From a virus, in the IMG/VR virus record IMGVR_UViG_3300033388_002277, positions 1 to 41,084 of that record: a DNA stretch of 41,084 nt; one strand, 5' to 3'. Each line of letters begins with the position of its first letter. Position 1 is the stretch's first letter. Below the pieces are notes generated by a model, which was given only the letters and a program-made list of their open reading frames with translations, was not told the origin of the DNA and did no database searches. Positions 3,927-41,084 of the stretch are shown in pieces. Position numbers and translations under genes: made by a program.

Positions 3927-6900
3927 GAAGTTGCACCATCTCCTACTTCTAGTCCGAGTAATACACCGGCTAAATCTAAACTATATAAAGAAACTGCTGG
4001 ATTAGATGAATCATCTTTTATCTTCATTTGTAGCATATTCTCAACAGTTCCTATATCTATCAGAACAGTTTTCCCAAAAGTGAAATCATCAGCTCTGTTA
4101 TAGGCGAATGTTTCCGCTGTTGTCCAAGATACATTCCAATCAATTCTAAATTGAAAATAAAGATTAATTGTAGATACTGAAGGTGCTTGCTTGAAACTTA
4201 TGCCTAGCTGTAATGATTTTGATAACGTACCTACTGATCCAGGCTTTATCCTTGGTGATACCCAATAAGCGCTTATATCAGTCCCATCATCACTATCACC
4301 GCTTTCCATCTGCCACATATACCCTGTATACCCAGCGCAATACAATATCTTGGCTTTGCTTGTAGATATGGCATAAAGGGAAGAAGCAAAAGGTTGACCA
4401 TCATAAGGATAAACACCGCCTGTTTTATAATCAAAAACAAAAGCGTAATTGATAACAGTATCTGTACCTAAAACGCAATATAGTATATACTCTGATGTAT
4501 CAGTTTTTACCGTAGAATGGAAACAATCAGCATAAGTCAAATTCATATCTGAAAAAGATAATGGCTGATCATCGCCAGGCTCAAACAAATCATTAGTTTC
4601 TTCTGTTAAATTTTCATTTATAATCTGAACATTGTAGCCATCGAATAAGGCTAGTTTCTTATCTGTAGTCAAGAACACTAATACAGTGCCAAGCTCTCCA
4701 CCGATTTCAACTTCTTTAATAGTATAATGAGCCGGACAACCAATTCCCAATATCTGATCAACTTGGAAAGTTGGATTTGAACCCAGAAAACTTATTCTAT
4801 GTATTGAATATCTTTTGAAGATATATAATTTACCTTTCAATATCCTCATACCTGTTATAACATCACCATCATTAGTATTAACATTCAGCGTATTGGCGGC
4901 ATCCCATGTAGCATAATCTGAAAGGTTCGAATATTTTATAGTATTAGGGGAACCGCGAACACCTGCTGCGAATACATAGTTGCGCCAAATTACTACAAAT
5001 TTACTGATAGGGGCTGCAGCTACCGAAGATACTGCACCTGTACCTAGATACGTAAAAAGCCCTATGTCTGTATTTATCAATGCTCTGCCGGACTGCCAAT
5101 CAGCAAATGTCCAATATCTGCTTGTAGTTAGTAACGAGGCCGCATAGAAATTATCTATATAGAAAGTTGTTTCAGCGTCAGCATTTAAAACTGTTATTAT
5201 TATTTCATCTATATCATCTTTGTTGGCATTGGAAACAGCGGATAAATCCCAAGTAACCGTTTGGAAAACATTAGCTACTGTTATATTTGGGGTTATTTCT
5301 GTGGTCGTGCCTCCACTATCATGTATACCTATCTTTATATTACTACCAGTACGATTAGAGCGTATATCAAACTTCAACGTATTCTCATTAGACAAATCTA
5401 TTGATAATGATGATTTCGTTAAAGTATCATTTAAACTGCTTGCTATTGCTGCAATACTTTTCAAGGAATATAATCCTTGAGTTTTAATTGTACTTTCAGA
5501 ATAAGATTGAAGAGGTCCATCGGTGCTATAAGGTCCAGTAGGTACTGTAATAGTATCATCTGGTGTAGAATTTGGTGAAGCACTAAATATATTACTTTTC
5601 TGTATTCTTAATTCGTCCATATAGCCGTCCAAGAAATTAGTTGCGCCTGTAGCACCTATACTTAAAATACCAGCGAAGGTGTCTGTATTTGTAAAAGAAC
5701 CGCTGTAAGCTACTTGAACACCATCTTTATATATTCCAAATTCATCAGCTTTCTTTACTAAAGCGATATGGTGCCAATCAGTATCAGTTATTTCCCCACC
5801 ACTAATGCTTATTCTTGTAGTAGCATTTTCTCTATAAAAGAAGAAAATCCCATTACCATGTATATGAAGTAGCCCCCATGTATTATCATCATTCTCTCGT
5901 TGTGCTACATATTCTTCATTTCCTACATGATCGTTATGTTTTACCCAGAAATCTATAGTCCAATCATCAATAGTGGAAGCCATTAAGTCCCAATCGGGAC
6001 TATCAGCATATTGTAAAAATCCACTATCACCATCAAAATCAGCACTGGCGGTACCCCATTTCTTGACAGCAGTAACGGTATTAACATCAGCAGTGACTGT
6101 AGCATTGCCTTTAGGATCGTCAGTAGAGGAATCTGGGAAAGTTGTTCCTGCATCTGCACCATCCATGTGCATTGCTAACTTAGTATTTGAATCTATAGTG
6201 GCAGTAGTATCACTACTGACATACGCTGCCTGTGCAGCACCATCTGTAGCATATTCCATTAAATCAACTTCTGTGCTTACATTAAATAAATTATCCCAAG
6301 CACCGTCTGGCGTTCCTAATGAATCTTTTTCCATTTTGTACAAAGTAGTGCCAAACATTCCTAGTAGCATATTCCTGGAAGAGAAATCAAAAAGGGAAAA
6401 ACAATCATTACCCTTTGCGCCACCAGTAATATACATCTCAAATACTGCATTATACTTGCTTTGGGCTTCCCACGTGGTAGCATCATAAGCGCTCATTGTT
6501 CCATCAGGGAAAACTACATCATAATCATCTGTTCCCCATTCTGCGTAAGCTGTTCCATTTATGGTGTTGTCACCCTGCAATACTAAATGATATTGAGTGT
6601 CAGCAGTTAATGTTGGTCCAGTTGAAAATGTGAAAGTATACCAAGCGTAAGAAGTAGTTAATGTAGATATATCAATATTTACTGAAGTTCCATTAGATAC
6701 TGCCGAACCAGAAGGCACACCTGAGCTGTCTGTCTGTAGCTCTATGTTTATATTTCCTGTAGGAGTGCTAGTTTTCTTTAGCCACAACCTTACCTTTTGA
6801 ACGGCAGCTGAAGTCTTGGGCTTAAATCCTTGAGATATTTCTGTTCTTGAAGTAGCATCTCTGAGAGCATAATCAAACGTTTGATATCCTGAAGGATAGT

Positions 6901-7099
6901 AAACGTCTAAATTATCACTGCCAACTTCTGAAGAATTAATTTTTGAATACCCACCCCTTTTGACTAATCTTTCTTTTACTCCGGCACAATGAAAGTTTCT
7001 CATATTGGGACTCTTAGTAAGACCCATAGCTATAATAGGCGTTCTGGTATCTTGCCCACCTGAGAAATCAGTAATTGCAGCAATCTGTTTACGTATCAT
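3923..7099 (-). CDS. Tail nozzle-like protein with inserted LamG/jelly-roll domains (1058 aa)
   Basis: Start ATG (7099) shares a base with the stop of the adaptor gene, the usual adaptor-nozzle pair of podoviruses. The N-terminus (about 1-60: FSGGQDTR, AMGLTKSPNMRNF) and the region at about 670-945 (FVVIWRNYVFAAG, GDVITGMRILKGKLYIFK) look like the blades of the nozzle beta-propeller. Inserted between them are a jelly-roll-like domain (about 85-200), a LamG/concanavalin-type domain (about 300-505, with DWTIDFWVKHND and DTDWHHIALVKK), and a second carbohydrate-binding-like jelly roll (about 535-660). Simple nozzles lack these. The extra domains probably face outward and bind host glycans, giving the short tail its own receptor-binding surface. 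Propeller and inserts are my reading, not a search result. Confidence 0.8.
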   Translation of the reverse strand: MIRKQIAAITDFSGGQDTRTPIIAMGLTKSPNMRNFHCAGVKERLVKRGGYSKINSSEVGSDNLDVYYPSGYQTFDYALRDATSRTEISQGFKPKTSAAVQKVRLWLKKTSTPTGNINIELQTDSSGVPSGSAVSNGTSVNIDISTLTTSYAWYTFTFSTGPTLTADTQYHLVLQGDNTINGTAYAEWGTDDYDVVFPDGTMSAYDATTWEAQSKYNAVFEMYITGGAKGNDCFSLFDFSSRNMLLGMFGTTLYKMEKDSLGTPDGAWDNLFNVSTEVDLMEYATDGAAQAAYVSSDTTATIDSNTKLAMHMDGADAGTTFPDSSTDDPKGNATVTADVNTVTAVKKWGTASADFDGDSGFLQYADSPDWDLMASTIDDWTIDFWVKHNDHVGNEEYVAQRENDDNTWGLLHIHGNGIFFFYRENATTRISISGGEITDTDWHHIALVKKADEFGIYKDGVQVAYSGSFTNTDTFAGILSIGATGATNFLDGYMDELRIQKSNIFSASPNSTPDDTITVPTGPYSTDGPLQSYSESTIKTQGLYSLKSIAAIASSLNDTLTKSSLSIDLSNENTLKFDIRSNRTGSNIKIGIHDSGGTTTEITPNITVANVFQTVTWDLSAVSNANKDDIDEIIITVLNADAETTFYIDNFYAASLLTTSRYWTFADWQSGRALINTDIGLFTYLGTGAVSSVAAAPISKFVVIWRNYVFAAGVRGSPNTIKYSNLSDYATWDAANTLNVNTNDGDVITGMRILKGKLYIFKRYSIHRISFLGSNPTFQVDQILGIGCPAHYTIKEVEIGGELGTVLVFLTTDKKLALFDGYNVQIINENLTEETNDLFEPGDDQPLSFSDMNLTYADCFHSTVKTDTSEYILYCVLGTDTVINYAFVFDYKTGGVYPYDGQPFASSLYAISTSKAKILYCAGYTGYMWQMESGDSDDGTDISAYWVSPRIKPGSVGTLSKSLQLGISFKQAPSVSTINLYFQFRIDWNVSWTTAETFAYNRADDFTFGKTVLIDIGTVENMLQMKIKDDSSNPAVSLYSLDLAGVLLGLEVGDGATS

Positions 7100-8536: not shown

Positions 8537-9640
8537 TTATACTTGATCTTCACAACTTACCTCCATTTTTTGTACTGTTAATAGCCCGAATAGAGCTATT
8601 GAAGTTCCTGCTAGTCTTGAATAATCCATAAAAGAATATCCCAGCCCGCAGATAGCTAATATTAAACAAGAGGCTATCAAGCCTTTTGATATTTGAGTTC
8701 TATATTTAAATCCAACAAATTTACTAATAATGAATATTAACAATGCTATTATTCCAAATATTCCTAAAGCATGGGTTACGCCTAAATATAAACTATATGG
8801 ATCAGTATATTTAATAGACCTAGCATTGATATACTCAAAAGTTCCAATCCCATACCCATAAAACAATTTTTGGTGAATCAAAGCAATGGTATTCTCCCAT
8901 ACATCAATTCTTACATTTAATTTAGAAAAAAACTTAACACAATATAAAACGACTAAAGAACAAAAAGACACAATATAAATATTAATATACTTTACTTTGA
9001 ATAATTTATGCCTGCACAAATATGCCATACCTATAACAGCAGGTATTATTGCCGTTCCTGATTTTGATAGAGCCAACCCTATCGCTGGAATTATGGCCAG
9101 ATATGGATTCAGTACATAACAAATAGGCAATGATATCGCTTGGTAAATTCCTAGGTTAGTCTTATAGCTCATTAGACCCATAATGAATGAATCATGTAAA
9201 GGGTTCGGGTCGTGATTAAAGGGATAGTAAACACCGAACGATTGGAATATCGCAAATATAGTATTTAGCGCTGACACAACAACAACAATTTTTAATATCG
9301 ACTTTACATTCTTTGTATAAGTTACAATTAAATAGTAAAGAAGAAAACCTAAAAATACAGTAGGAAAACTTTTGATAGTTATAGGATGTGGAAACATATT
9401 CCAAGCGCACACAACAAACAAAATCGCGAATAGTTTATCTTCGAATATCCTTTTTGGTCTATCAAATAATGCCGCCAGAAACAAGGCTACTATACCATAT
9501 TGAAATAATTGTAATTGTAACAATGAAATACTTCCACTAAAATAGCCAAACTGATACCATTGATATCTTGCAGCAAAGCCAAAAGATGTATATAGTATTG
9601 GCGTTAATAATAGAAATATTTTCAATGTTAAATCAAACAT
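8537..9640 (-). CDS. Wzy/WaaL-like O-antigen polymerase or ligase membrane protein (367 aa)
   Basis: About ten hydrophobic helices cover the chain. A large loop near residues 245-285 contains R-x-D-x-W (NVRIDVWENTIALI) followed by GYGIGTFEY, the arrangement typical of the Wzy_C/O-antigen ligase superfamily, whose periplasmic loop Arg and Gly motifs act on undecaprenyl-linked sugars. Chain length is near the family norm. The start ATG lies one base beyond the stop of the secreted 118-aa gene, with a weak ribosome site, suggesting translational coupling. It sits inside the virion operon, not in a sugar cluster. It may alter the host O-antigen or capsule so that related phages cannot attach, as serotype-converting phages do; the substrate is unknown. 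Confidence 0.75.
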   Translation of the reverse strand: MFDLTLKIFLLLTPILYTSFGFAARYQWYQFGYFSGSISLLQLQLFQYGIVALFLAALFDRPKRIFEDKLFAILFVVCAWNMFPHPITIKSFPTVFLGFLLYYLIVTYTKNVKSILKIVVVVSALNTIFAIFQSFGVYYPFNHDPNPLHDSFIMGLMSYKTNLGIYQAISLPICYVLNPYLAIIPAIGLALSKSGTAIIPAVIGMAYLCRHKLFKVKYINIYIVSFCSLVVLYCVKFFSKLNVRIDVWENTIALIHQKLFYGYGIGTFEYINARSIKYTDPYSLYLGVTHALGIFGIIALLIFIISKFVGFKYRTQISKGLIASCLILAICGLGYSFMDYSRLAGTSIALFGLLTVQKMEVSCEDQV

Positions 9641-9641
9641 A

Positions 9642-9998
9642 TTATTCGTATCTTAATATTGCATACCCATCATTGACTAGTAAATATATACCATCTCTAA
9701 ACGTTAATGGCTTATCACTGAAATCTTGATGCTGAGTACCTAGTGCTGTAACCTCAGAGCCTTCAGTCTGTATCTCGCTAAGATCAGTTGAATCTACCGT
9801 TTGGGTGATAGCATCATAAATAATAAAATCACCGCCATTAGCCGTTGCAGTAAACGTAACAGAATACAATGTTGCGTTGCCGCGTTTTACTAAAGTGCTT
9901 GTTTTATAAGCAGTAACAGTGGCAGTATTCCTATCAGCGAATACAATCGGCATCAAAAACAATGTCATTAAAAACATCACAAAAACTTTTTTTCTCAT
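9642..9998 (-). CDS. Secreted small beta-protein, paralogue of the next upstream gene (118 aa)
   Basis: ATG at 9998 has TAGGAGA upstream. The N-terminus MRKKVFVMFLMTLFLMPIVF is a Sec signal peptide with likely cleavage after the next Ala (before DRNTA). The mature part is about 96 residues of beta-type sequence: LYSVTFTATANGG, IQTEGSEVTALG, FRDGIYLLVNDGY. It aligns over its whole mature length with the 128-aa protein encoded at 10054-10440, so the two arose by duplication. The function is not known. It could be an exported surface protein or a virion decoration with an unexpected export signal. Confidence 0.75.
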   Translation of the reverse strand: MRKKVFVMFLMTLFLMPIVFADRNTATVTAYKTSTLVKRGNATLYSVTFTATANGGDFIIYDAITQTVDSTDLSEIQTEGSEVTALGTQHQDFSDKPLTFRDGIYLLVNDGYAILRYE

Positions 9999-10053: not shown

Positions 10054-10440
10054 TTACCTATAGTGTACTACAACGTCCATGCCAGTAGTCAATATCACCA
10101 TACCATTCCTAAACCTTATACCTTCGTCACCAAAATCAACTGGTGCTACAGAGTCATATTGTGTAGCTTCTCCACCTTCAGTTAATATATTGGTCCTTGA
10201 TGCTGAACCTTCTGTTTCAGCATAGGTAGCATAATCTAAGATAGCATAAATCCCAGCAGCAGCAGTGGCCGTAGCCATAACCTTATAGAGTGTTCCTCCA
10301 TTGCCAGTGATTAAAGTGTCTGCAGACAAGGCAGCGCCTGTCTTCATAGGTATAGTTCTAGCTGGATCAGCTTTTGCGCTAAAAGCAAAAGCACCTAACC
10401 CAACCAAAACTACAAGAAGTAAAATAGCAATCTTTTTCAT
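10054..10440 (-). CDS. Secreted or decoration-like small protein directly after the capsid gene (128 aa)
   Basis: ATG at 10440 follows AAAGGAGA. The N-terminus MKKIAILLLVVLVGLGAFAF is a clear Sec signal peptide with cleavage probable at SAKA/DP. The mature part contains LYKVMATATAAAG, ILTEGGEATQYD and IRFRNGMVILTTG, matching the paralogue at 9642-9998. Position immediately downstream of the major capsid gene is where a head decoration protein is usual, yet a signal peptide would send it out of the cytoplasm where heads assemble. Either it is exported for another purpose or the hydrophobic end serves a non-export role. Confidence 0.75.
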   Translation of the reverse strand: MKKIAILLLVVLVGLGAFAFSAKADPARTIPMKTGAALSADTLITGNGGTLYKVMATATAAAGIYAILDYATYAETEGSASRTNILTEGGEATQYDSVAPVDFGDEGIRFRNGMVILTTGMDVVVHYR

Positions 10441-10455
10441 AATTTCTCCTTTAGT

Positions 10456-11751
10456 TTATACGCTTATTGGGTTGTCAGCCATAGTCTTCATTAACACATA
10501 ATTAACTGATTCTCCGGCACTATCTGTAATAGTTGATTGACCGTAGACTGCAGCTATACCTAATCCATTTTCGAAGTAAGTTCCATCAGGGAATTTGTAG
10601 TCATAACCTTGATAGATTGGTTGTGGTTTCATACCCCAACCTCTTACAGCAATTTCAGCACCAAAACCAATTACACTACCTACGTCACGTTGTGTTATCA
10701 ACGCACCTTCAGTATGTGCAGCAGCAGAAGTACCATTTTGGCCACGTGAACAACCAGCAAATCTGTAAGTAGTACCTGTTAGAGTACCGGCAGTAATGCT
10801 AGTGTAAGTGATATCTTCATCATCAATCTTGATTGTTCCTGCAGATGCGAAGAAATCAGCTAGATTTCTCTTTGTTCCGATAAGATCAAAGATTATCTCT
10901 GTGTCACTGTCAGAAGCAGTTGTGTACAATCTTACTTCTGGGCGTAATGGAGAACCTTGAATTTGAGCAGCAGACTTTTTAGCTCTGTGACAATACAAAA
11001 TTATTCCATTATAGATGCCTAAGGCACCAGAAAACAAACGGTTCTTCATGTAATCTCTTGGTCCAGCATCACGTTGAGCTTGATTCCATACAGAATCGCC
11101 CTTCAACCAATACTCATCGATTTCAGAGATAACACAACCGTAAAACTCTTGCTCTTCCCCATACTCTGAAGTAGTACGAATGGGTATCGCTGTACGCTGA
11201 AGCGCTAATTTAAGACGATCAATTTCTTCGGTACCAAAATGATCATTAGCGCCTAGAGAAGCTTCAGTTGTAGCATCTCCAGCATAAATTGTGTTGCTTG
11301 CATTTGTAATCAAAGCTGCAAACATATCGCTATCAATTTTTCTCTGCATCCAATCTGACAACTCAGTACGGATAGTTTGAGCGATATTAAAATTAACTCT
11401 CTTCTCAAGATTCTTTGTGTACGCTACTGCGTTTCTTAACCAATCTACTGTTAGGGTATACTGCCCTAAAGCTAATTGATCTTCATTGCCAGTTAGCGTA
11501 TTTTCACCTGTTACTCCGGCTGAGAATAACTGTGTTACAACATTGAACTTGATAGTTTCCCCAGGTTTCTTTGTGAAATCAGTATTGGAGATGATAGGTT
11601 TTCTTGAACCTTCAGCACCCTCAAATCTGGCTCCCCAAAATGCTCTTCTTATAGCATCTGCACGTAGGCGATCGGCCCAATAGGTTGGGATTGCATTTTG
11701 CAATACTCCTGACCCATCATCATATCCCATATTGTTAAGTGTTTCAGACAT
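10456..11751 (-). CDS. Major capsid protein, N4 gp56/DUF4043-like HK97 fold (431 aa)
   Basis: Placed right after the scaffold gene with a strong AAAAAGGAG site before ATG 11751. The N-terminal arm (IPTYWADRLRADAIRRAF), RKPIISNTDFTKKPGETIKF, DWLRNAVAYTKNLEKRVNF and ELSDWMQRKIDSDMF are typical of the N4-gp56-type capsid family. Near residues 300-350 there is an inserted small beta-domain (GTIKIDDEDITYTSI, FAGCSRGQNGTSAAAHTEG) of a kind shared with many phage surface proteins, which may stick out from the capsomer. It forms the icosahedral shell. Family identification is by pattern memory. Confidence 0.85.
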   Translation of the reverse strand: MSETLNNMGYDDGSGVLQNAIPTYWADRLRADAIRRAFWGARFEGAEGSRKPIISNTDFTKKPGETIKFNVVTQLFSAGVTGENTLTGNEDQLALGQYTLTVDWLRNAVAYTKNLEKRVNFNIAQTIRTELSDWMQRKIDSDMFAALITNASNTIYAGDATTEASLGANDHFGTEEIDRLKLALQRTAIPIRTTSEYGEEQEFYGCVISEIDEYWLKGDSVWNQAQRDAGPRDYMKNRLFSGALGIYNGIILYCHRAKKSAAQIQGSPLRPEVRLYTTASDSDTEIIFDLIGTKRNLADFFASAGTIKIDDEDITYTSITAGTLTGTTYRFAGCSRGQNGTSAAAHTEGALITQRDVGSVIGFGAEIAVRGWGMKPQPIYQGYDYKFPDGTYFENGLGIAAVYGQSTITDSAGESVNYVLMKTMADNPISV

Positions 11752-17579: not shown

Positions 17580-17717
17580 TTAATATATATCACCATAATT
17601 ACAACCACCACATTCTATGCCAAGAACCTCATCAAACGTTTCCACTGAAACCTCTTTGTGCATATGAGTGAAACAATGCCACCATAGTTTTATCTTGTTT
17701 ATTGCTGTTGGTTTCAT
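17580..17717 (-). CDS. Small Cys/His protein (45 aa)
   Basis: ATG 17717 overlaps the TGA of the lipoprotein gene (ATGA), so it is translationally coupled. Contains WWHCFTHMH and ECGGCNYGD; Cys 15, 36, 39 with nearby His could form a zinc site. Similar tiny zinc-type proteins sit between the terminase genes in other phages, as far as I recall; role unknown. Confidence 0.55.
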   Translation of the reverse strand: MKPTAINKIKLWWHCFTHMHKEVSVETFDEVLGIECGGCNYGDIY

Positions 17718-17935
17718 TTGGTTGATCCTATTGAATTTGGTATCTTGAAAGGTTCTTCTCTGGTTGCTGATATTGAACCATCTGCTTTGATCTCACCACT
17801 TTTCATGCCATAACTTAGGCGCACTTCTTTTGTTTGCACCTTTACACCCTCTTTGAAGTCGTAGAATTTGGCTGTTCCTGCGCAGGCTGTTAGGATTAAG
17901 GGGCTTGTGATTAATAATAGGTATAATTTGTTCAT
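17714..17935 (-). CDS. Small lipoprotein (73 aa)
   Basis: The N-terminus MNKLYLLLITSPLILTAC has a classic lipobox LTAC with the lipidated Cys at residue 18; the mature protein is about 56 residues, polar (AGTAKFYDFKEGVKVQTKEV). This is the size and build of outer-membrane spanin subunits (o-spanin) or of superinfection-exclusion lipoproteins. It is far from the lysis cassette at 34227-35240 and between the terminase genes, so spanin is possible but not certain. Start overlaps the stop of the 35-aa ORF upstream. Confidence 0.7.
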   Translation of the reverse strand: MNKLYLLLITSPLILTACAGTAKFYDFKEGVKVQTKEVRLSYGMKSGEIKADGSISATREEPFKIPNSIGSTK

Positions 17936-29406: not shown

Positions 29407-29434
29407 AATCTATCACTAAATTTTCATTTGTCAA
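29407..29434 (-). promoter_or_regulatory. Promoter P4 (leftward, exonuclease to primase operon)
   Basis: TTGACA (29434-29429), 16-base spacer ending in TGA, TAGATT (29412-29407). It lies over the 3' end of the methyltransferase gene. The -10 is weaker than in P1 and P3, but the -35 and TGn are exact. Confidence 0.7.
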
Positions 29435-29918
29435 CAATTAATTTCATAAAACAAACCCAATGTGTTTTTTGAGTTTTACCAGAGGGATGCCCAAACAACG
29501 GACGATAATTTGTAAGTTTCAATACTTCCTTTAATGGTATATCATATTCATTCCATTTGAATATAAGGATCCCTTCATTTTTTAATACCCTAAAACATTC
29601 TGAAAACCCTTTAGACAGATCGTCTTTCCATGTATTTTTGTCTAATACACTATATTTTTTTGCCATATAACTATTCTTCCCTAATGAGGTAAAATGTGGA
29701 GGGTCAAATACTACGAGAGCAAAGCTATCAGATTTTAGATCAAGATTCCTAAAATCCATTATTTGATCCGGATCACATTCAAACTTTCTAGCATTTTCCC
29801 CTTTTCCAACCATACAAGATTCTACTTTGCGCTTATCAATAAAAAGAGCATTGGGATTCTTTCTATCAAACCAAAACATCCGGCCGCCACAACAAGCATC
29901 TAATATTAATTTATTCAT
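29424..29918 (-). CDS. DNA methyltransferase-like SAM enzyme (164 aa)
   Basis: Class I fold: motif I LILDACCGGRMFWF near the N-terminus, IV as VVFDPPHFTSLG with DPPH at residues 72-75, the (D/N)PPx signature of amino-methyltransferases (N6-adenine or N4-cytosine). GFSECFRVLKNEGILIFKWN is a typical later strand. It is short, with no separate target-recognition domain visible. Probably methylates phage DNA or a base within it to escape host restriction; substrate unproven. ATGA overlap with the VRR-NUC gene. Confidence 0.82.
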   Translation of the reverse strand: MNKLILDACCGGRMFWFDRKNPNALFIDKRKVESCMVGKGENARKFECDPDQIMDFRNLDLKSDSFALVVFDPPHFTSLGKNSYMAKKYSVLDKNTWKDDLSKGFSECFRVLKNEGILIFKWNEYDIPLKEVLKLTNYRPLFGHPSGKTQKTHWVCFMKLIVDK

Positions 29919-30714: not shown

Positions 30715-31004
30715 CACTCACCCCCTTTCAATTCATTCCATAATAGAAACATCACGCAACACATAGCATGAGCCAAATGCGGCAACCCGCTCTCAGGGTC
30801 CAGCTTCTCTCCTTGCTTCCAAGCTGACATATGCCTCATCATAGCTGCATAGTACCTATCATCAAAATTCTTTAACTTTTGCCAATTATTTGAACCGTAC
30901 TTGCTTGCGCCGAAAGTCAATATCTTAACGACACATTCAATTGGTTTCATTGGGAGCAAATCCCATCTTAGCTTACCATCATCATATTTTTTACCTCTGC
31001 CCAT
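30714..31004 (-). CDS. MazG-like dATP/dGTP pyrophosphohydrolase (DUF5664-type) (96 aa)
   Basis: GGAGG five bases before ATG 31004 fixes the start. KYDDGKLRWDLLPMKPIECV, FGASKYGSNNWQK, YYAAMMRHMSAWKQGEKLD and GLPHLAHAMCCVMFLLW are the conserved blocks of the phage family annotated as dATP/dGTP diphosphohydrolase N-terminal domain. Members adjust purine nucleotide pools; in Z-genome phages a related enzyme clears dATP/dGTP. No PurZ is in this genome, so Z-DNA is not supported. Confidence 0.8.
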   Translation of the reverse strand: MGRGKKYDDGKLRWDLLPMKPIECVVKILTFGASKYGSNNWQKLKNFDDRYYAAMMRHMSAWKQGEKLDPESGLPHLAHAMCCVMFLLWNELKGGE

Positions 31005-31902
31005 TTTTACCTCCATATTTTACACCTATATAATCTAACACCTTGCCACACCCTAAAGTATTTATGCAATAATCCCATAGCTTAGGATGAGTTCTGGCCA
31101 TCCTTTGAAATCTGTTTTCTCCTTTTTCCATGTGTACACCAAACATACAGAATATGCAGCCGGTATGTTTTTCTCCCATATCATATATTTTAGAGTAAGG
31201 TAGATTGTTGTCTTTGATGTATTGCCACACATCTGACTCTAGCCAGAAAGCTATAGGAGTGGACCTAGACGATCTACCATCGAAGGAATTACACCCTTGC
31301 TTGATATATTCTAGTTTTCTTTGCTGACTATCACAAGCCATAGTTCCTATGAAAGCTGACAGCTTTGTTTCCTTATTATATCTTATAATCGGCTCTTTTT
31401 TCAGCCTTTCACAACACTTCTCGCTAATTTTAAAAGGAGCATCAATTAGATAATGCCATTTCCTAGATATAGTAGGGTGTTGTTTCTTGCCAGAAGTGGG
31501 ATTTATGCCACCATAAAGCCTTAAATCTTTTTGAATCTGTGAATTTGTGTTTCTGCACCTATGTATTCCCATTGAATTTTTTTTACTTACTACTGGATAA
31601 CCATATTTTTCAAGGACTTCTTTAAATGACATTTTTGGTCTAACCCATGTAACGTTGGGAATAGTCCTTACAAATTCTTTAATCTCAGGATATTCTAAGC
31701 CAGTGTCAACAAACATAGCTGGAATATCAGGATATTCAGACCTCACCAAATCTAGCAATACTGTGCTATCTTTACCACCAGAGAATGAAACATACACATT
31801 GCCTTCCATAGCTTCATAGAACTCTCTAATTTTCTTCTTGGAAAGCTCTACCTTAACTCTAAGGTCTAATCCCTGTCTTTGTTTTAGCTGCCAATGTTCC
31901 AT
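30991..31902 (-). CDS. PAPS reductase/DndC-like sulfurtransferase-family protein (303 aa)
   Basis: ATG 31902 shares a base with the SNF2 stop. PP-loop ATP-pyrophosphatase motif VSFSGGKDSTVLLDL (SGGKDS at 41-46), MFVDTGLEYPE, and four Cys suitable for an Fe-S cluster: CC at 163-164, C249 and C252 (HTGCIFC). This set is shared by DndC-like proteins and phage PAPS reductase homologues. It might sulfur-modify DNA or tRNA, or assimilate sulfate. No DndD/E partners are present, so phosphorothioate DNA is only a possibility. Next to helicase, nuclease and methyltransferase genes. Confidence 0.8.
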   Translation of the reverse strand: MEHWQLKQRQGLDLRVKVELSKKKIREFYEAMEGNVYVSFSGGKDSTVLLDLVRSEYPDIPAMFVDTGLEYPEIKEFVRTIPNVTWVRPKMSFKEVLEKYGYPVVSKKNSMGIHRCRNTNSQIQKDLRLYGGINPTSGKKQHPTISRKWHYLIDAPFKISEKCCERLKKEPIIRYNKETKLSAFIGTMACDSQQRKLEYIKQGCNSFDGRSSRSTPIAFWLESDVWQYIKDNNLPYSKIYDMGEKHTGCIFCMFGVHMEKGENRFQRMARTHPKLWDYCINTLGCGKVLDYIGVKYGGKNGQR

Positions 31903-33260
31903 TATTTTCTTCTCAAAAATCCATTCACAATATCTTGTGCATCGCCCTTGCGCTGCAGCGTTATATATATATCTTCCTCTATAGTGTTGTGGCATATCAG
32001 GTGTATATAGGTGCAAGGATTTTTCTGGCCAATTCTATGCGTCCTACCTCTTGCCTGTATGTAACACTCTGAGCTGTAATCTAATGCGTAGAAAATCTGT
32101 ATATTACAATTCACTAAAGTTAATCCATGAGCTGCAGATCTTGGATGCGCTATGAAAAACTGAGCCTCACCACTCTTGAAAGCTTTGATGGACCCATCCT
32201 TATCCTTAGTACCACCATAGAGCGTAACGCATTTATCCTTCAACAATTCTGCGAGCTGTCTAACCTCATGCTGGAACTGGCACCATATAATAGCCTGTTG
32301 TGTCCCTATATCATCTAGTATGCCCTTCAGCTCCTTTAATTTGGGGTTCTCCTTAGTAGGTTGGACGATGCCGTCAGTATCTATTGCAAAGCCACTACAT
32401 AGCTGTCTAAGCTTCATAAGCTTGGTTAGAGCCACCTGAGCCACTATAGCTTGGCTTTGGATCTCGATAATGGCTTCACGCTTCATAGTATTGTAAAGGC
32501 TCCTAAGCTTGGCTGGCAGCACCACGAACCGCTTCTGGTCTATCTGCTCCGGCATATCAACACATTCCACAAGCTTGGCATAATGGGTGTAAGGCTTCAT
32601 CTTCAATACCAGCTGCTCTCTTCTTTGAGGTGTTAGCTTGTACTTCCAGCCGTTCTGAAAAAGCTTACTCATTGCTTGCTTGTCCATAATCTGACCATTC
32701 ATAACTTGGCCACCACGCGCCAAATGAAAGAAGTAACCCCGAAAGGCATAAAAACTTTTGTGAAATATCTCATCACCGACAAAGCTCATCTGGCTCCAAT
32801 ACTCAGTTTCGCAATTAGGCGCAGGAGTACCACTCATAACTATTCTGTATTGAAAATCATGCTTCATTTTCAGGAGTTTCTTAGTGGTTTTTGATTTAAA
32901 ATTCTTCATGCGGCTGCTTTCATCTAAGGCTATCATTGCTGGGCCATTTATTTTGAAGCTGTTTCTTAATACCCACTCCCAATTGGCAATGTATATATCA
33001 GCTTCTTTAAACTTCTTTTCTCTCATGGAGTGATATGTGAAGTTAGTGAACTTCTTGATATCTTCACCCCAAGCCTCATTAATCAGTGTTATAGGACATA
33101 CCACGCAAAGCTTCAGATTTGGTATTGGCTTCTTATAATATTTGTAAGTCTCAAGCACAGTCAAGGTTTTACCGCAACCAATAGAATGGAACAATGCCCC
33201 GCTTCCCTTGTTTTTGATCAATAATTTTATAGCTTCTTTTTGGTGGTTATACAATTCCAT
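31902..33260 (-). CDS. SNF2/DEAD-like helicase-translocase (452 aa)
   Basis: ATG 33260 with GGAG seven bases upstream. Motif I ALFHSIGCGKTLTVLE (GCGKT 28-32), motif II ALDESSRMKN (DESS variant of DEAH), motif III RIVMSGTPAPNCE, and C-terminal motif V/VI with CYIQARGRTHRIGQ, typical of SNF2-family ATPases. Such phage helicases act in replication or recombination, together with VRR-NUC and exonuclease proteins. Stop overlaps the PAPS-reductase start. Confidence 0.88.
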   Translation of the reverse strand: MELYNHQKEAIKLLIKNKGSGALFHSIGCGKTLTVLETYKYYKKPIPNLKLCVVCPITLINEAWGEDIKKFTNFTYHSMREKKFKEADIYIANWEWVLRNSFKINGPAMIALDESSRMKNFKSKTTKKLLKMKHDFQYRIVMSGTPAPNCETEYWSQMSFVGDEIFHKSFYAFRGYFFHLARGGQVMNGQIMDKQAMSKLFQNGWKYKLTPQRREQLVLKMKPYTHYAKLVECVDMPEQIDQKRFVVLPAKLRSLYNTMKREAIIEIQSQAIVAQVALTKLMKLRQLCSGFAIDTDGIVQPTKENPKLKELKGILDDIGTQQAIIWCQFQHEVRQLAELLKDKCVTLYGGTKDKDGSIKAFKSGEAQFFIAHPRSAAHGLTLVNCNIQIFYALDYSSECYIQARGRTHRIGQKNPCTYIHLICHNTIEEDIYITLQRKGDAQDIVNGFLRRK

Positions 33261-33372
33261 ACAAATCTCCAATACTGCTGTTTAGCTTTTCTGCTTTACA
33301 ATCAACGAACCAATCTTTGAGCTTCCTGTTATATTTGATGGCTTCTTTGATTAGTGTTCCCTTTACGTACAT
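33247..33372 (-). CDS. Small basic protein (41 aa)
   Basis: ATG 33372 shares a base with the upstream TAA, and the 3' end overlaps the helicase start by 14 bp. Sequence VKGTLIKEAIKYNRKLKDWF then a polar tail. Likely translated as part of the helicase operon; function unknown. Confidence 0.55.
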   Translation of the reverse strand: MYVKGTLIKEAIKYNRKLKDWFVDCKAEKLNSSIGDLYGIV

Positions 33373-34937: not shown

Positions 34938-35240
34938 TCATTTTGTTCCTAATGCACCCTCAATCCTGGCTACTGCATTACTCATTGCAGTTTGCTCTAT
35001 TCTAAATTCTCTGAACTCGGTTTCCATTTTATCGTTTACATGAGTAATGGCTCTGTCCTGTCGGATATCTGACTTTTCTAAGGAGTCCATTTCCGATGTG
35101 GCGTTGGCATAACAAACTGCGCCGGCAACGATCAGGGGAACTATGACGCAAGCGATTCTGAACCACTCCATCGTTGATAGTTGGAGTTTGCCCTTTCTTC
35201 TGTCTTCGCCGTCATGATTGTCTGTTTTAATTTTTCCCAT
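34938..35240 (-). CDS. Membrane-anchored coiled-coil protein, holin- or spanin-like (100 aa)
   Basis: Charged start, one transmembrane helix at about residues 27-46 (FRIACVIVPLIVAGAVCYAN), then a charged helical tail (SDIRQDRAITHVNDKMETEF). This fits an i-spanin or an XhlA-like lysis accessory. Directly upstream of the NlpC-type gene. Could also be a tail-fibre accessory protein, but position favours lysis. Confidence 0.6.
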   Translation of the reverse strand: MGKIKTDNHDGEDRRKGKLQLSTMEWFRIACVIVPLIVAGAVCYANATSEMDSLEKSDIRQDRAITHVNDKMETEFREFRIEQTAMSNAVARIEGALGTK

Positions 35241-35266: not shown

Positions 35267-36622
35267 TTATGGGCTAAAAACCCTACCTTGCGCTCTCATT
35301 CTAAATGATATAGTGTCTGTTATGTCATCTTGTACTAATACTTCCATCTTCTGAATTGGCGAAGCATCACCATCAAGTTCAGCTACAAGCTCAGACTTAT
35401 GAAAAGACCATCTGCCATTAACTCCATGATTTCCAGCAGGTGCTTTATCCGAATATCCAACATCATACATATCCAGTTTCATATCTCCATTAGTTTTCCA
35501 ATTACCAAAAGTAACTGTTCTGCCTGCCGCCGTAGTAGCTCTTATAACAACCCCATTAGTTAATGCCGCCATTCCACCGAATTTTCCATCATCAGGTGCT
35601 AAATTATCTACTATTGAAAAAATTATTCTTGTAATCTGCCAGACGCTACCTGGTGGTGCTGTTATTTCAAAAGCTTCTGGTGATGCTAACGTACCAGATA
35701 CAGCCATTTCAGATATAACCTCAGTAACAACTGCTGCTGTCGTATAGTCATTCCCTAGCGGTCTATCAAGAGTTAATGTTCCGGGAGTACCTGCAGCAAC
35801 AACTGTAATTGTCATCAATCCTATTTCTACCTCCCCATCTTCTTCTAGTTTCAACTCATCACCCACTATAAAACCAGTCGTATCCGCAACAGATATGGAA
35901 GTGTCGCCTTCTGTTGCAGCAGAATTTAATGTGGTAGTTGTCGCAGTATGCTGATGGAATGTTTCATTGATGATTTTTCTATGCACCCAAGCATTATTCA
36001 CATCTAAAGCCCCGCGATAAGTTGTCACATTCTCAAAAACACCAGTGAGAGAACTTTCACCTGTAAGAACTGATTTTGTAAGTTCTGCATCATCTTCATC
36101 TACTATGGAATCTTGTATGCGATGTGAAGAAGGCTTTACATAATATGGTTTTAGTACAGTTTGCAATAAAAAGGATCCTTGCCCACTGCTTCCATTAGTA
36201 TATGTTACCTTAAAATATTTTGCAGCTGCTTGAAAACTAAAAGTCTTTTTAGCTCCTGCTGTGATAGTAAAAGAATCATCACTTATTAAAGTTGCATCTG
36301 ATCCTTGTGTTGAAAATTCTACTAGTAACCCATCTGTTGCACTCGCTACATTAGAAGTAACAGAAATAACAATAACACCATAATTAGTTATAACTTCCCA
36401 ATCTCCATCAAAAGACGCATCCCCCACAAGTGTGCTTTCTGATGAATTATCCGTACTGATATGCCCAGGCGCAAAAGCAATCAATCCATTAAATCCATTT
36501 GTAGGAACTACATCTGCTTCTGTTCCATCGCTATCTTTAATTATGACTGAATCAAATCTTGCTTGACCATAAACAGAACTAAATAAAAATAGACTCAATA
36601 TAAAACATATAAATTTTTTCAT
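35267..36622 (-). CDS. Secreted fibre-like beta-protein (451 aa)
   Basis: ATG 36622 overlaps the upstream TGA; a longer TTG start has no better site. Signal peptide KKFICFILSLFLFSSVYG, likely cleavage before QARFD. Mature part is Thr/Ser/Gly-rich beta: GLIAFAPGHISTD, ATEGDTSISVADTTGF and GTLTLDRPLG, of the kind found in phage fibres and surface proteins, and EITAPPGSVWQITRIIFSI. Last of four secreted fibre-type genes. Either an exported surface protein or a virion fibre with an unexpected signal. Confidence 0.75.
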   Translation of the reverse strand: MKKFICFILSLFLFSSVYGQARFDSVIIKDSDGTEADVVPTNGFNGLIAFAPGHISTDNSSESTLVGDASFDGDWEVITNYGVIVISVTSNVASATDGLLVEFSTQGSDATLISDDSFTITAGAKKTFSFQAAAKYFKVTYTNGSSGQGSFLLQTVLKPYYVKPSSHRIQDSIVDEDDAELTKSVLTGESSLTGVFENVTTYRGALDVNNAWVHRKIINETFHQHTATTTTLNSAATEGDTSISVADTTGFIVGDELKLEEDGEVEIGLMTITVVAAGTPGTLTLDRPLGNDYTTAAVVTEVISEMAVSGTLASPEAFEITAPPGSVWQITRIIFSIVDNLAPDDGKFGGMAALTNGVVIRATTAAGRTVTFGNWKTNGDMKLDMYDVGYSDKAPAGNHGVNGRWSFHKSELVAELDGDASPIQKMEVLVQDDITDTISFRMRAQGRVFSP

Positions 36623-37098
36623 CGCCAATGCTCCGTTGTTTCAAAGGTTAATTTAACCACTCCCTCACCAAATGCTTTGCTCGCATTTACCCCATCTATT
36701 TCTTGAGATCCGTTAGGCGTAGTAGTCACCAAGTTGCCCGTATCTCCTGTATTAAAAAAAGAATATTCTGTGCCATCAACACCCACTGGAAGATTCACTG
36801 TTATCGCTCCACTGTCGGTATTGCAATATATTTCATGATCCGTTGACAGCACTGTGTAAGGACTATCTGAATCAGTGATATGTGTAGTGTTTTTAATCCT
36901 TCCCTTGGTAGTAGTCAAGCCAACGCCAAAGATCCATTGCGTCAAGGTTCTAGTGACATTGAAAAAGGCTTGATTAAAGTCTCCTATCTGAATCTTGCGA
37001 GAATAATCAGGATAAACCCTGAAACTTTCCCCTGTGTGACTCTGGCCCAACACCGTTAAGGGAACGATTAACAATAATATAAATATTAATTTCTTCAT
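36619..37098 (-). CDS. Secreted fibre-domain protein (159 aa)
   Basis: Signal peptide KKLIFILLLIVPLTVLG, cleavage likely before QSHTG. The mature part includes YTVLSTDHEIYCNTDSGAIT and VNLPVGVDGTEYSFFNTGD, a small beta domain I recognise from many phage tail fibres and appendages. Ribosome site is modest (GGAG 12 bases upstream). Between two other secreted fibre-type genes. Confidence 0.75.
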   Translation of the reverse strand: MKKLIFILLLIVPLTVLGQSHTGESFRVYPDYSRKIQIGDFNQAFFNVTRTLTQWIFGVGLTTTKGRIKNTTHITDSDSPYTVLSTDHEIYCNTDSGAITVNLPVGVDGTEYSFFNTGDTGNLVTTTPNGSQEIDGVNASKAFGEGVVKLTFETTEHWR

Positions 37099-37099
37099 T

Positions 37100-38560
37100 T
37101 TATTGTGGTACTCCGAATTCGCTCATATTAGTAATTGTACCATTGCCACCCTCTATGTTGACTAGAACTGTTACCGTGTTGCTATCCTCTGATCCTTCAA
37201 AGCAAGCTCTTACACCAATGTAATAATTTCCTGTAGGAAGTAATAGTGCAGCATTGGTTTCGTCAGATCTAACAAGAGCAAATGTATCTGTGGCAGCAAC
37301 TGAAATCTTGTAATATGTATCACTAAACACATCATCACTACCCTCACGAACATAGATCCTGTACTCATCTACATCACCAGTTGCAGCATCCCAATCAATA
37401 GCAACAATTCCGTCACCAATTGCATCTGCTGTATCTATGCCAGAAAAAATTGGTGCAACCGCCACGGCAGCTGCTGCTTTGCCAACTGCACCAATCTCAG
37501 TGAATCCCTCTGATAATCCACCAGGAAACTCACCTGGGAACCCTAGATTATCCATAGCTGAACCTACAGAAAAATCGCCATTAGGGGCATCAGTAAAATC
37601 AGGATCGATGGAACTGCTATTAATTCCTTTTTCTACCCCACTAACATCGCCACCAGTGTTCCCATTAAAGTTATTCCAATCTAGTAAATTATCACCATAA
37701 GTAGTAGTGATATTGATACCTTTAGTAGTACATTCAGATATAATATTCTTTTCTATTATATTCCCATGTGATGTAGTACCCGCTATACCTATTGGACAAT
37801 TCCAAATGGTATTATCAATTACTTGCCCGTTAATCGTTGCACCAAAGTCAATACCCTTAACAACACAAGTCTCTACAATATTTCCCTTTGCAATAGAGCT
37901 ATTACCAATAAAGAGAATACCTATTTGCGAATCATGTATGTAACAATCTTCTACAATTCCACCAGAGTTCAATGTTACAGCGGCAGTTCCATTTGTACTT
38001 GATATTTCAGAGTTGATAATTCTATTTGGGCCTCCCTGAGAAAGTAGCCCATAACTTGAAGCGTGGGATGATGTACTTCTCATCCTAGAATTAAACACAG
38101 AAGAATAAATACTAAATCTCAACCCATGGCCATTACCGGTACCAGTATAAAGTAAATCCATATTGTAAACTAACCAATAAGAATCAAGAGCAATATAGAA
38201 ACCATTGCCTGTTATTGCAGGTTGATCTGCTCTGTCAGCTGCCCAATCTGAATATACTGGTGGTTCATTAGTTGTGCCTGGATTAACACCTATGATTTTA
38301 ATAGGTGATATAGCAGTTCCATCCTTCCCTGTACCTACAGTGGAGGTTATAGTGTAAGCACCGCCTTCAAAGAAATAGCGATCCCCTGGCTCTGCTGAAC
38401 CTTCGGCATCGCTTTCAAACTCTGATAAGCTGAAAGCATTTCCCCATGTCAACCCATCTTTAGTTCCAGATCCACCACTTACAACATACATGTCCGTTGG
38501 TGCAGAATAAACACTTAAAGGTATTAAAAGTAAAAGTAAAGTTGCTATAAATTTTTTCAT
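37100..38560 (-). CDS. Secreted parallel beta-helix protein with Fn3-like tail (486 aa)
   Basis: Signal peptide KKFIATLLLLLIPLSVYS, cleavage before APTDM. Then the pectate-lyase-type start (VSGGSGTKDGLTWGNAF), beta-helix rungs with IINSEIS, GIVEDCYIHDSQIGIL, GIDFGATINGQVIDNTIW and IIEKNIISEC, and a C-terminal fibronectin-III-like domain (GIVAIDWDAATGDVDEYRIY). Such helices bind or cut polysaccharide, as in tailspikes; I see no certain catalytic triad. The signal peptide is not expected on an assembled tailspike. Start overlaps the preceding stop. Confidence 0.78.
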   Translation of the reverse strand: MKKFIATLLLLLIPLSVYSAPTDMYVVSGGSGTKDGLTWGNAFSLSEFESDAEGSAEPGDRYFFEGGAYTITSTVGTGKDGTAISPIKIIGVNPGTTNEPPVYSDWAADRADQPAITGNGFYIALDSYWLVYNMDLLYTGTGNGHGLRFSIYSSVFNSRMRSTSSHASSYGLLSQGGPNRIINSEISSTNGTAAVTLNSGGIVEDCYIHDSQIGILFIGNSSIAKGNIVETCVVKGIDFGATINGQVIDNTIWNCPIGIAGTTSHGNIIEKNIISECTTKGINITTTYGDNLLDWNNFNGNTGGDVSGVEKGINSSSIDPDFTDAPNGDFSVGSAMDNLGFPGEFPGGLSEGFTEIGAVGKAAAAVAVAPIFSGIDTADAIGDGIVAIDWDAATGDVDEYRIYVREGSDDVFSDTYYKISVAATDTFALVRSDETNAALLLPTGNYYIGVRACFEGSEDSNTVTVLVNIEGGNGTITNMSEFGVPQ

Positions 38561-39081
38561 GGTGTCACCGTAGTTCCTATAAAGTTATTGTTACTATTAT
38601 AATTTCTTGTCCATGTATATGTGCCATCCGTAAAGGATGATATTCTGTTATCGCTCCAACTAATTGTTTCGTTCCTCCCTCCGACACGTTGGATTGCTGT
38701 TACTTTTCTGCCGTCTCGTGTGTAGACTGTGCTTCCTGTCTCGTAGGCATCGCTGGCCTCTATCTCTGTTGCATTGGTCAAGTTATAACCGCCCCAATCA
38801 ATATCTGCCGTTGGTGAATTGCCACCATCACGCCTTATATATAGGCCGTCAGTAAAAGGCTCCACATCATGCGTTGCTGTACCATCCCCATTATCAGTGA
38901 TAGTGCCATTGTTAAATTTCACTTGCCAAGGAAATACTTGTGGACTACCATCTTCCTCGGTTACGCTTTGCACGCCATTGCCAACAGGAACGCCACTAGG
39001 CACACCGCTATGATTGCCACCGCGAGGCTGTGCTGATGCCACTAAAGGTATCATCAGAAATATCAATAATAATTTCCTCAT
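38557..39081 (-). CDS. Secreted fibre-like protein, alternative longer start (174 aa)
   Basis: ATG 39081 has GGAGAAG upstream and gives signal peptide RKLLLIFLMIPLVASA, cleavage before QPRGG. An in-frame ATG at 39168, overlapping the previous gene's TGA, adds 29 residues with another hydrophobic helix, so two forms may be made. Mature motifs: WQVKFNNGTITDNGDGTATH, YIRRDGGNSPTADIDWGGYN and FTDGTYTWTRNY, common in phage tail fibres. First of four such genes. Confidence 0.72.
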   Translation of the reverse strand: MRKLLLIFLMIPLVASAQPRGGNHSGVPSGVPVGNGVQSVTEEDGSPQVFPWQVKFNNGTITDNGDGTATHDVEPFTDGLYIRRDGGNSPTADIDWGGYNLTNATEIEASDAYETGSTVYTRDGRKVTAIQRVGGRNETISWSDNRISSFTDGTYTWTRNYNSNNNFIGTTVTP

Positions 39082-39164
39082 AGCTTTCTTCTCCAATTTT
39101 ATGAACAGCAACATCATAGGGCAGTAAATTGCTATACCGATCAGCATAAATTTGATAATATCTT

Positions 39165-39485
39165 TCATCGTAGATAACTCACTTGTAATTTACCATCTGT
39201 TCCTACACCACCTGTCCTTATAAACTTAGTGTCATTTAGCTGCATAGTACCCTCTATGACCAAGGAAGAGTTAGGGTACAAGCTATGGCCAACTGTTGCT
39301 GTTGGGTCTTCTCCATTCATTCTGTACCTCATTGAGGCTGTCTCAGCCGTTATTATAGCCATCTTTGGCTTAGGTGTAGCGTTTAGCTTGTCAGCAGAAA
39401 ATCCTATGGCTGTATCTGTAACAATAATTACTTCATCATCAAAACATTTGTACTTGCCTACTACGTGTAATCTGTTGTCTATCAT
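39165..39485 (-). CDS. Small virion-type beta protein (106 aa)
   Basis: ATG overlaps the end of the ejection-like gene. Motifs VIIVTDTAIGFSADKLNATP, ITAETASMRYRMNGEDPTAT, GHSLYPNSSLVIEG and FIRTGGVGTDGKLQVSY match a small beta protein I recognise from several phages, where it is likely a decoration or fibre-base protein. No signal peptide. Between ejection and secreted-fibre genes. Confidence 0.7.
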   Translation of the reverse strand: MIDNRLHVVGKYKCFDDEVIIVTDTAIGFSADKLNATPKPKMAIITAETASMRYRMNGEDPTATVGHSLYPNSSLVIEGTMQLNDTKFIRTGGVGTDGKLQVSYLR

Positions 39486-41084
39486 TTAGCACCTACTGGT
39501 TGTAAGTCAAGTTTCTTTGCCTTGACTTGCTTAAATTTTTCCTCAATTTTAACCTGTAAATCTGCAATCTTTTGATCGTATCTATCTGTTTTCACTTTCT
39601 TTTGCTCTGCCGTTAAGCGCGCATTTTTCTCGGTATCTTTTTTTAGCTTTATATAATTGTTGATCACTTCCTGAGTAGGAGCAAGCTGTCTGGCCATATC
39701 TCTTATACCTTTGTTTCGATTTAACAACTTTTTTGCCTCTTCTCTTTTGCCCTGTTTTATCAACTTTCGGTAATTAGACATTACTGAGTTGGAAGAATAC
39801 ACTATCTCCTTAGGAGTAGGGGTGTAAGTCTGTATGCCAACACCTATACTGGCAGGTATCACCATTGGTAAATCTTTCAATCCCCCTTCTTTATATAAAT
39901 CATAAGCATCTTGCATGATCATTGGTACGAATAATGACCCAACTTCCTTACCAACATTGATCTTTTCACCAAAGCCTGTTTGACCTTTAGCCAATTTAGT
40001 TATCAATGATGGAACAGGGGCTTCTTTACTTTCGATGAATCTTGTCGCTATATCAAATCTAGTTAATGGCTTATACCCTTCGCCTAATGTTGCCTCGACA
40101 CCAGTGGTAGAACTGATATATTTACCGCTAAGTATTTGAGCTAATGATCTTATTGGCTGTTGGAATCCAGCCCAAATATCTATTCTTGTATTACCAATTT
40201 TTATCTTACCAAAGTCAGCACTTCTAGGATCTTTCCCAACTTTTGCGCCACCCATTTCAGCCAATTTCAAGACGGTCAATCCTGTACCTATCAAAGCTGA
40301 TGCTGATTGTAGCGCTTCTTTTCTGGCCACAGGAGGCAAGCCTACATAATATGCTGGATTCAACAGAGTCAATCTTGAGCTTACCAATCTTGGTGAAAAC
40401 AAAAGGCCATTCATTATCTTCGCTGAACTCTCTAATGCGCCTAGACCGCCTCTTCCTGAAGCATTGTTAATAAAGTTGGCAACTCCAGCAGCTTCCACAG
40501 GATTGTTCATAAGATTGTTTTTCTTAACTATATAATCAAAAGTATCAGCTCTCATTTTATTTAGAAAGCCTGTATATGCTCTTTCTGATTGCTTGACTAG
40601 TGGTATCTTTCCCACAAATTTACTCAAAAATTCTTCTTCTTTTCCAACCAACATATCAGTTAAAGCTAATTTACTGTTCCTCATTAACTCATAAGTCGGT
40701 CTGCTTTGAATTTCTTGCTGCAGTCCTTCATATGCTTTTTTATTGAAGAAGTATTTAAACTGCTCCTTGAAAGCTCTAGCGCCTATTTTTGGGTGACGAA
40801 CAAAAGGCACTAATCCCTGTCTAAGAGGGGCTGAAAAATCAGCAGTAGCTCTCATGGCTTTTGGAACATTTACAAGATCTCCAAATAGGTCTAGCATCTT
40901 TTTAGTGGTAGAGCGTTTAGCTAACATGGCACCGGCAAAATCCTTAGAGAAAACTTGCTCTAACAACTTCATCTCTCCCTTGGTAGGAACTGTTCCACCG
41001 GCTTCGCCCAATAATTTAGCTAATCCGTTCTTTGCCGTAATTTTCTCAAATGGTTGGATAAGACTGTTTTGCTCTATAGTTGTG
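39482..41084 (-). CDS. Large internal virion/ejection-like protein, C-terminal part (runs off the right edge)
   Basis: Continuation of the gene that starts at 866; bases 40971-41084 repeat 1-114. This part is about 500 residues and ends with TGA overlapping the ATG of the next gene. Seen here: an amphipathic helical segment with APLRQGLVPF, typical of large phage virion proteins of unknown role; a weakly hydrophobic stretch around PASIGVGIQ; and a long charged, coiled-coil-like C-terminus rich in Lys and Glu. The last residues are LDLQPVGAK, repeating the motif found twice at the N-terminus. No lytic transglycosylase motif is visible. Probably packaged in the head and ejected with DNA; this is inference from synteny and composition. 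Confidence 0.75.
   Translation of the reverse strand, partial: TTIEQNSLIQPFEKITAKNGLAKLLGEAGGTVPTKGEMKLLEQVFSKDFAGAMLAKRSTTKKMLDLFGDLVNVPKAMRATADFSAPLRQGLVPFVRHPKIGARAFKEQFKYFFNKKAYEGLQQEIQSRPTYELMRNSKLALTDMLVGKEEEFLSKFVGKIPLVKQSERAYTGFLNKMRADTFDYIVKKNNLMNNPVEAAGVANFINNASGRGGLGALESSAKIMNGLLFSPRLVSSRLTLLNPAYYVGLPPVARKEALQSASALIGTGLTVLKLAEMGGAKVGKDPRSADFGKIKIGNTRIDIWAGFQQPIRSLAQILSGKYISSTTGVEATLGEGYKPLTRFDIATRFIESKEAPVPSLITKLAKGQTGFGEKINVGKEVGSLFVPMIMQDAYDLYKEGGLKDLPMVIPASIGVGIQTYTPTPKEIVYSSNSVMSNYRKLIKQGKREEAKKLLNRNKGIRDMARQLAPTQEVINNYIKLKKDTEKNARLTAEQKKVKTDRYDQKIADLQVKIEEKFKQVKAKKLDLQPVGAK
40971..41084. repeat. Terminal direct repeat, right copy (circular overlap)
   Basis: Exact second copy of bases 1-114. 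Together the two copies show the unit genome to be 40,970 bp and circular or circularly permuted. Confidence 0.93.

Follow-up and report, generated by a model that had tools for sequence, protein, structure and literature searches.

Genes of the fibre block and the capsid cassette

The stretch of DNA analysed here (the window, 41,084 nucleotides) is the entire virus record IMGVR_UViG_3300033388_002277, in which N-terminal signal peptides of the secretory (Sec) pathway are predicted on four consecutive fibre-type genes, f1 to f4, and on two small genes directly after the capsid gene, d2 and d1 (Table 1). Given that its first 114 bp are directly repeated at its other end (1-114 and 40971-41084), the record represents a complete genome of about 40,970 bp. 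The minus strand carries almost all of the genes, among them those for a terminase large subunit, a portal and a capsid protein. The further structural genes resemble those of podoviruses in their order, with tail and ejection labels taken from weak matches and position; T7 has a similar order of ejection protein, fibre block and small membrane or lysis gene.

Table 1. Genes of the fibre block, the capsid cassette and their neighbours in the window.
Gene	Position	Strand	Predicted signal	Cut before	Description
f0	39165..39485	-			small protein upstream of f1, without signal, also in G007, G010 and G011
f1	38557..39081	-	MRKLLLIFLMIPLVASA	QP	174 amino acids, fibre-type; N-terminal module in relatives
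f2	37100..38560	-	MKKFIATLLLLLIPLSVYS	AP	486 amino acids, right-handed beta-helix; Pfam Beta_helix 3.5e-10
f3	36619..37098	-	MKKLIFILLLIVPLTVLG	QS	159 amino acids; homologues in other phages without signal
f4	35267..36622	-	MKKFICFILSLFLFSSVYG	QA	451 amino acids, two-domain beta protein; mobile phage family
small membrane protein	34938..35240	-			directly after the fibre block; holin-type lysis gene by position only
major capsid protein	10456..11751	-			without signal; PHROG 334 2.3e-34 and relatives; anchors the capsid-d2-d1-Wzy_C cassette
d2	10054..10440	-	MKKIAILLLVVLVGLGAFAFSAKA	DPAR	128 amino acids, directly after the capsid gene; site from family alignment
d1	9642..9998	-	MRKKVFVMFLMTLFLMPIVFA	DRNT	118 amino acids; paralogue of d2 (37% identity)
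Wzy_C-type protein	8537..9640	-			multi-span membrane protein (O-antigen ligase/polymerase superfamily); adjoins d1

A first-pass annotation of this DNA had reported a block of four fibre-type genes with Sec signals, and all four open reading frames are indeed found on the minus strand with starts at 39081, 38560, 37098 and 36622. However, the set comprises at least six proteins, since d1 and d2 near the capsid gene had been overlooked. The description as fibre-like holds for the genes starting at 38560 (Beta_helix domain), 36622 (a phage-wide family) and 39081 (by way of its relatives), and is weaker for the one at 37098; neither f1 nor f3 has a Pfam match. The Wzy_C-type gene and the signal-free homologues described below had also escaped that annotation.

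Signal peptides of the six proteins

Signals were called with a home-made rule based on a charged n-region, an uncharged h-region with a mean hydropathy of at least 2, and small residues at positions -3 and -1. When calibrated on E. coli K-12, the rule was positive in 21 of 24 exported versus 3 of 79 other proteins, a score of 5 or more was found in 1 of 79 non-exported ones, and the false-positive rate is approximately 1-4%. Among the 157 open reading frames of lambda, P22 and T7, such scores were reached only by lom, two Rz proteins and two spurious frames. Within the window, only 9 of 50 genes were positive. The N-termini of f1 to f4 each combine a Lys/Arg start, 12-15 hydrophobic residues and a small-x-small site, score between 5.2 and 6.0, and are confirmed, as judged from their sequences, as canonical Sec/signal-peptidase-I N-termini; d1 and d2 have strong signals by the same rule. 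All six belong to the late structural region, in runs of four and two, and chance cannot plausibly account for the run of four. The first-pass remark that this was no stray hit is strengthened by the calibration and by the comparative data from relatives.

That the hydrophobic starts are artefacts, produced by wrong gene starts or by chance, is very improbable. The ribosome-binding motif at the start of f2 is weak and the signals were called by a home-made rule, which would favour such an explanation, but the low false-positive rate, the runs of four and two and the conservation across relatives argue against it. Mis-annotated starts were rejected, since no Shine-Dalgarno-led alternative start was found downstream of the signal in any of the six proteins. 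In the case of f1, a start at the in-frame ATG at 39168, which overlaps f0 in an ATGA, would lengthen the protein by a hydrophobic stretch (39082-39168); a Shine-Dalgarno motif (GGAG) is present at 39081 only, not at 39168. In the relative G007, the signal begins right at the ATGA overlap, and the extra hydrophobic stretch upstream of f1 is absent.

None of the six signal proteins has a lipobox cysteine at +1, which sets them apart from lipoprotein exclusion of the T5 Llp type. Ser/Thr after the cleavage site is at 28% versus 19-20%, only a mild excess as a hint of glycosylation. The idea that export serves disulphide bonding found no support, as mature d1, d2, f1 and f4 are without cysteine. 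A Bacteroidota host, suggested by Gln at +1 in three of the four fibre-block proteins (the "Q-rule"), was set aside as unproven, because Shine-Dalgarno motifs precede 28 of 35 window genes, versus an 11% background, and d1 and d2 have Asp/Glu at +1. Two scans of bacterial genomes found no host or prophage.

The signals in related phages

When the capsid protein and terminase were scanned as single sequences against viral contigs, no matches were obtained, and the lineage was reached only by an alignment of the capsid protein with a relative, which led to 17 contigs (48-84% identical), IMG/VR contigs being partly fragments. In all 15 contigs that extend past the capsid gene, the genes next after it encode two or three small proteins whose N-termini resemble signals; these 15 are about a dozen distinct ones, with some near-duplicates, and three are cut off before the end of the second gene. 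In L118, the most distant, the small signal-bearing proteins were matched to d2/d1 by position alone, and one d2 (L109) fails the rule owing to an arginine. Between the d1 proteins of L104 and L105, differences affect 12 of the 24 residues of the signal, which is nevertheless retained, but only 2 of 96 in the mature part; random substitution of as many bases in the d1 signal retains a signal in 4%. The divergence may represent a swapped signal segment, and either way the function seems to have been kept.

These comparisons bear on a reading in which the signals stay uncleaved and serve as tails that bind lipid or anchor the protein in a membrane, either on the virion or during assembly at the membrane. 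T7 remains viable when its capsid protein carries the PhoE signal as a fusion, and such phage reportedly contained phospholipid (PMC5157022), but it is the cleavage sites that are kept within families (between FA and DRN in d1, between A and D or E in d2), not mere hydrophobicity, and the signals diverge separately from the mature part, so that we find uncleaved tails hardly probable.

The mature d2 is modelled as a jelly roll (predicted local distance difference test score, pLDDT, 85), with short phage proteins that carry no annotation as its close viral matches. It also matches, weakly, the trimeric cement protein of Helicobacter phage KHP40 (7dou; E 7e-3, template modelling score, TM-score, 0.44), which is likewise a small jelly roll, and d2 and d1 directly follow the capsid gene. 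Unlike d2 and d1, however, decoration proteins are normally without an export signal. A signal-bearing protein (L057:4120-4647) likewise comes directly after the capsid gene in a contig that is unrelated and has different head genes; two more signal-bearing genes lie upstream there.

At the f1 site, G007, G010 and G011 encode longer proteins with a signal and an f1-like N-terminus, sharing the module EEDGSP..TDNGDGT. The G011 protein (698 amino acids) is definitely a tail fibre, with Peptidase_S74 at 5.8e-13, a PHROG tail fibre match at 5.5e-19 and a Sec signal. In G007, the protein (910 amino acids) has a charged and hydrophobic N-terminus with no standard cleavage site and was missed by the rule, and the one in G010 is cut off by the contig end. 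The signal-bearing protein is the sole long fibre seen at the fibre site of G007 and G011. The f1 module is shared with a Peptidase_S74 fibre; it differs from such fibres in that the one of G011 has a Sec signal, and in that the window f1 is short and without the S74 domain. The counterpart of f0 in L031 is signal-bearing. G007 also encodes an endolysin/transglycosylase-like protein with a hydrophobic N-terminus (L092:2428-2865, minus strand), and lysis may also use Sec.

Relatives of f4 were found at 57 loci in IMG/VR, some of them near-duplicates. About 50 have no signal, including the two closest (65-68% identical); besides the window, only L031 and L057 carry one, and on a tree of 40 members three changes are needed for the three signal-bearing members. 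One of the signal-free f3 homologues adjoins an f4 homologue. Inheritance of the signals along with the fibre modules is therefore unsupported for f3 and f4, whose relatives are mostly signal-free. In L031 and L057, neighbouring structural genes bear signals too, and across the loci the sharing of signals between f4 and its neighbours has a Fisher p of 0.005 (neighbours counted by hand); in L033 and L040, fibre or beta-helix proteins encoded close to a signal-free f4 gene begin with signal-like sequences. The predicted signals tend to occur as sets within one phage.

The mature f4 model consists of beta domains (pLDDT 82, predicted TM-score 0.57). By profile, f4 matches a phage tail tube; by fold, it matches the tail tip of phage Chi, the Rider domain of a K1 lyase and, as the best solved structure, PBSX XepA (6i56; E 3e-7). 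XepA is an exported late protein, encoded near lysis genes, that is not found in mature particles (PMC6834076). As f4 sits just before the holin-type gene, it could, perhaps with its neighbours, be a late exported lysis helper acting on the envelope, as proposed for XepA. We consider this quite unlikely: the TM-scores between f4 and XepA are low (0.23/0.35) and there is no sequence match, the closest f4 homologues either lie among head-tail genes (G004) or lack the signal, other relatives are found at head/tail positions, and d1, d2 and the S74 fibre would be left unexplained.

Moreover, the Wzy_C-type gene, part of the late operon, follows the exported pair wherever the relatives' sequence extends, except in L109, where a membrane protein with C-terminal TPRs (L109:12184-13647; TPR_2 8e-18) replaces it, an architecture that recalls TMTC-type O-mannosyltransferases. 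Pfam Wzy_C matches the window protein below the cutoff (7.6e-4) and its L104 counterpart above it (1.1e-7). A profile match to WaaL (7tpg, 1.4e-5) points to the WaaL/Wzy/PglL superfamily; the activity of the window protein may be that of a ligase, a polymerase or a protein glycosylation enzyme.

The conservation of this gene beside d1 fits a reading in which the six proteins are exported but do not join the virion. They would remain in the periplasm or on the cell surface and mask the receptor, or alter the surface with the Wzy_C enzyme, the purpose of masking being superinfection exclusion or keeping progeny off debris. The exported outer-membrane protein lom of lambda also sits among tail-fibre genes, and signal-bearing proteins of Porphyromonas gingivalis phages were read as envelope modifiers (PMC10367356). 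However, in every relative small signal proteins occupy the d2/d1 position immediately behind the capsid gene, the families of f3, f4 and the f1 counterparts in relatives are of virion type, no long fibre other than a signal-bearing one was seen at two fibre sites, and late expression is late for exclusion. An envelope role, with or without receptor masking, is thus possible but on the unlikely side.

Some other genes of the window deserve mention. An open reading frame at 866-3 continues in frame into 41083-39482 over the junction, when the repeat is counted once. In the structural region, a 1,058-amino-acid protein (3923-7099) has a Laminin_G_3 (ConA-like lectin) domain (1e-14), possibly a carbohydrate-binding insert. 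A 73-amino-acid protein with a lipoprotein-like signal (LTAC) at 17714-17935 is perhaps an outer-membrane spanin. The replication region includes genes for a DNA methyltransferase (29424-29918), a PAPS-reductase-like protein (30991-32016) and an SNF2-type helicase (31902-33272).

Proposed route to the virion and comparison with known systems

Sec export of the six proteins is strongly supported by their predicted signals, which are likely to be translated, are retained in the lineage and have been added to families normally without them. As to what follows export, we tentatively favour f1 to f4, d1 and d2 as outer virion parts that are attached to the particles at lysis, outside the cytoplasm. 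The first-pass annotation had offered proteins that coat the host surface or block superinfection, and fibres added outside the cytoplasm during lysis, without choosing between them. The evidence tilts to virion parts, because the trait is co-conserved with the capsid-adjacent exported d1 and d2, these have a predicted jelly-roll fold, and an S74 fibre of a relative bears a signal. Where the genes lie, immediately behind the capsid gene or at the fibre site, speaks for virion parts rather than unrelated envelope proteins, and so does the relatedness of f3, f4 and the f1 counterparts in relatives to virion-type families.

According to this proposal, the late-expressed fibre modules and capsid-decoration-like jelly rolls would each be made as a precursor, pass through the host Sec machinery and be processed by the host's signal peptidase I. 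In mature form they would then fold and oligomerise in the periplasm, away from the capsids, which would assemble and take up DNA in the cytoplasm. Lysis would open the envelope, and the completed particles would, during or after it, bind the waiting appendages. Decoration proteins and tailspikes, e.g., P22 gp9, can bind completed particles late. Several points weigh against virion attachment: G012 has no f0/f1 block at the corresponding site, the top structural match of f4 is a protein exported yet not in particles (PMC6834076), the Wzy_C gene might just as well serve to modify the surface, and the location of the six proteins in the virion is one that we infer.

An extended version, in which the particle is built in two compartments and its periplasmic decoration and fibre proteins are glycosylated by the phage Wzy_C-type transferase (membrane-plus-TPR in one member) before being joined at lysis, seems doubtful. 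We keep the glycosylation link apart from the preferred reading of exported virion parts, since it derives from gene order and from a superfamily that includes polymerases and ligases.

The assembly of tailed phages is held to be cytoplasmic until lysis, and the open-licence literature yielded no report of Sec-exported tailed-phage fibres or decoration proteins. A conserved lineage with Sec signals on both would mean either that the virion is partly matured in the periplasm or that fibre-type proteins are deployed on the infected cell, and the trait, signal peptides on fibre and decoration genes, can be searched for in other genomes. Among known systems, the filamentous phages (Inoviridae) have virion proteins, pIII and pVIII, with cleavable Sec signals; their particles form at the inner membrane and are released by extrusion, whereas the window is a double-stranded DNA phage with terminase, portal and capsid protein. 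Lambda lom, Bor and similar morons are signal-bearing proteins from late or fibre regions as well, but they are not fibre-like and occur as single genes, not as a set including decoration proteins. In addition, P. gingivalis phages encode several Sec-signal proteins of unknown function, some with Gln at +1 (PMC10367356); these phages have Bacteroidetes hosts, whereas Shine-Dalgarno motifs are used in the window genome.

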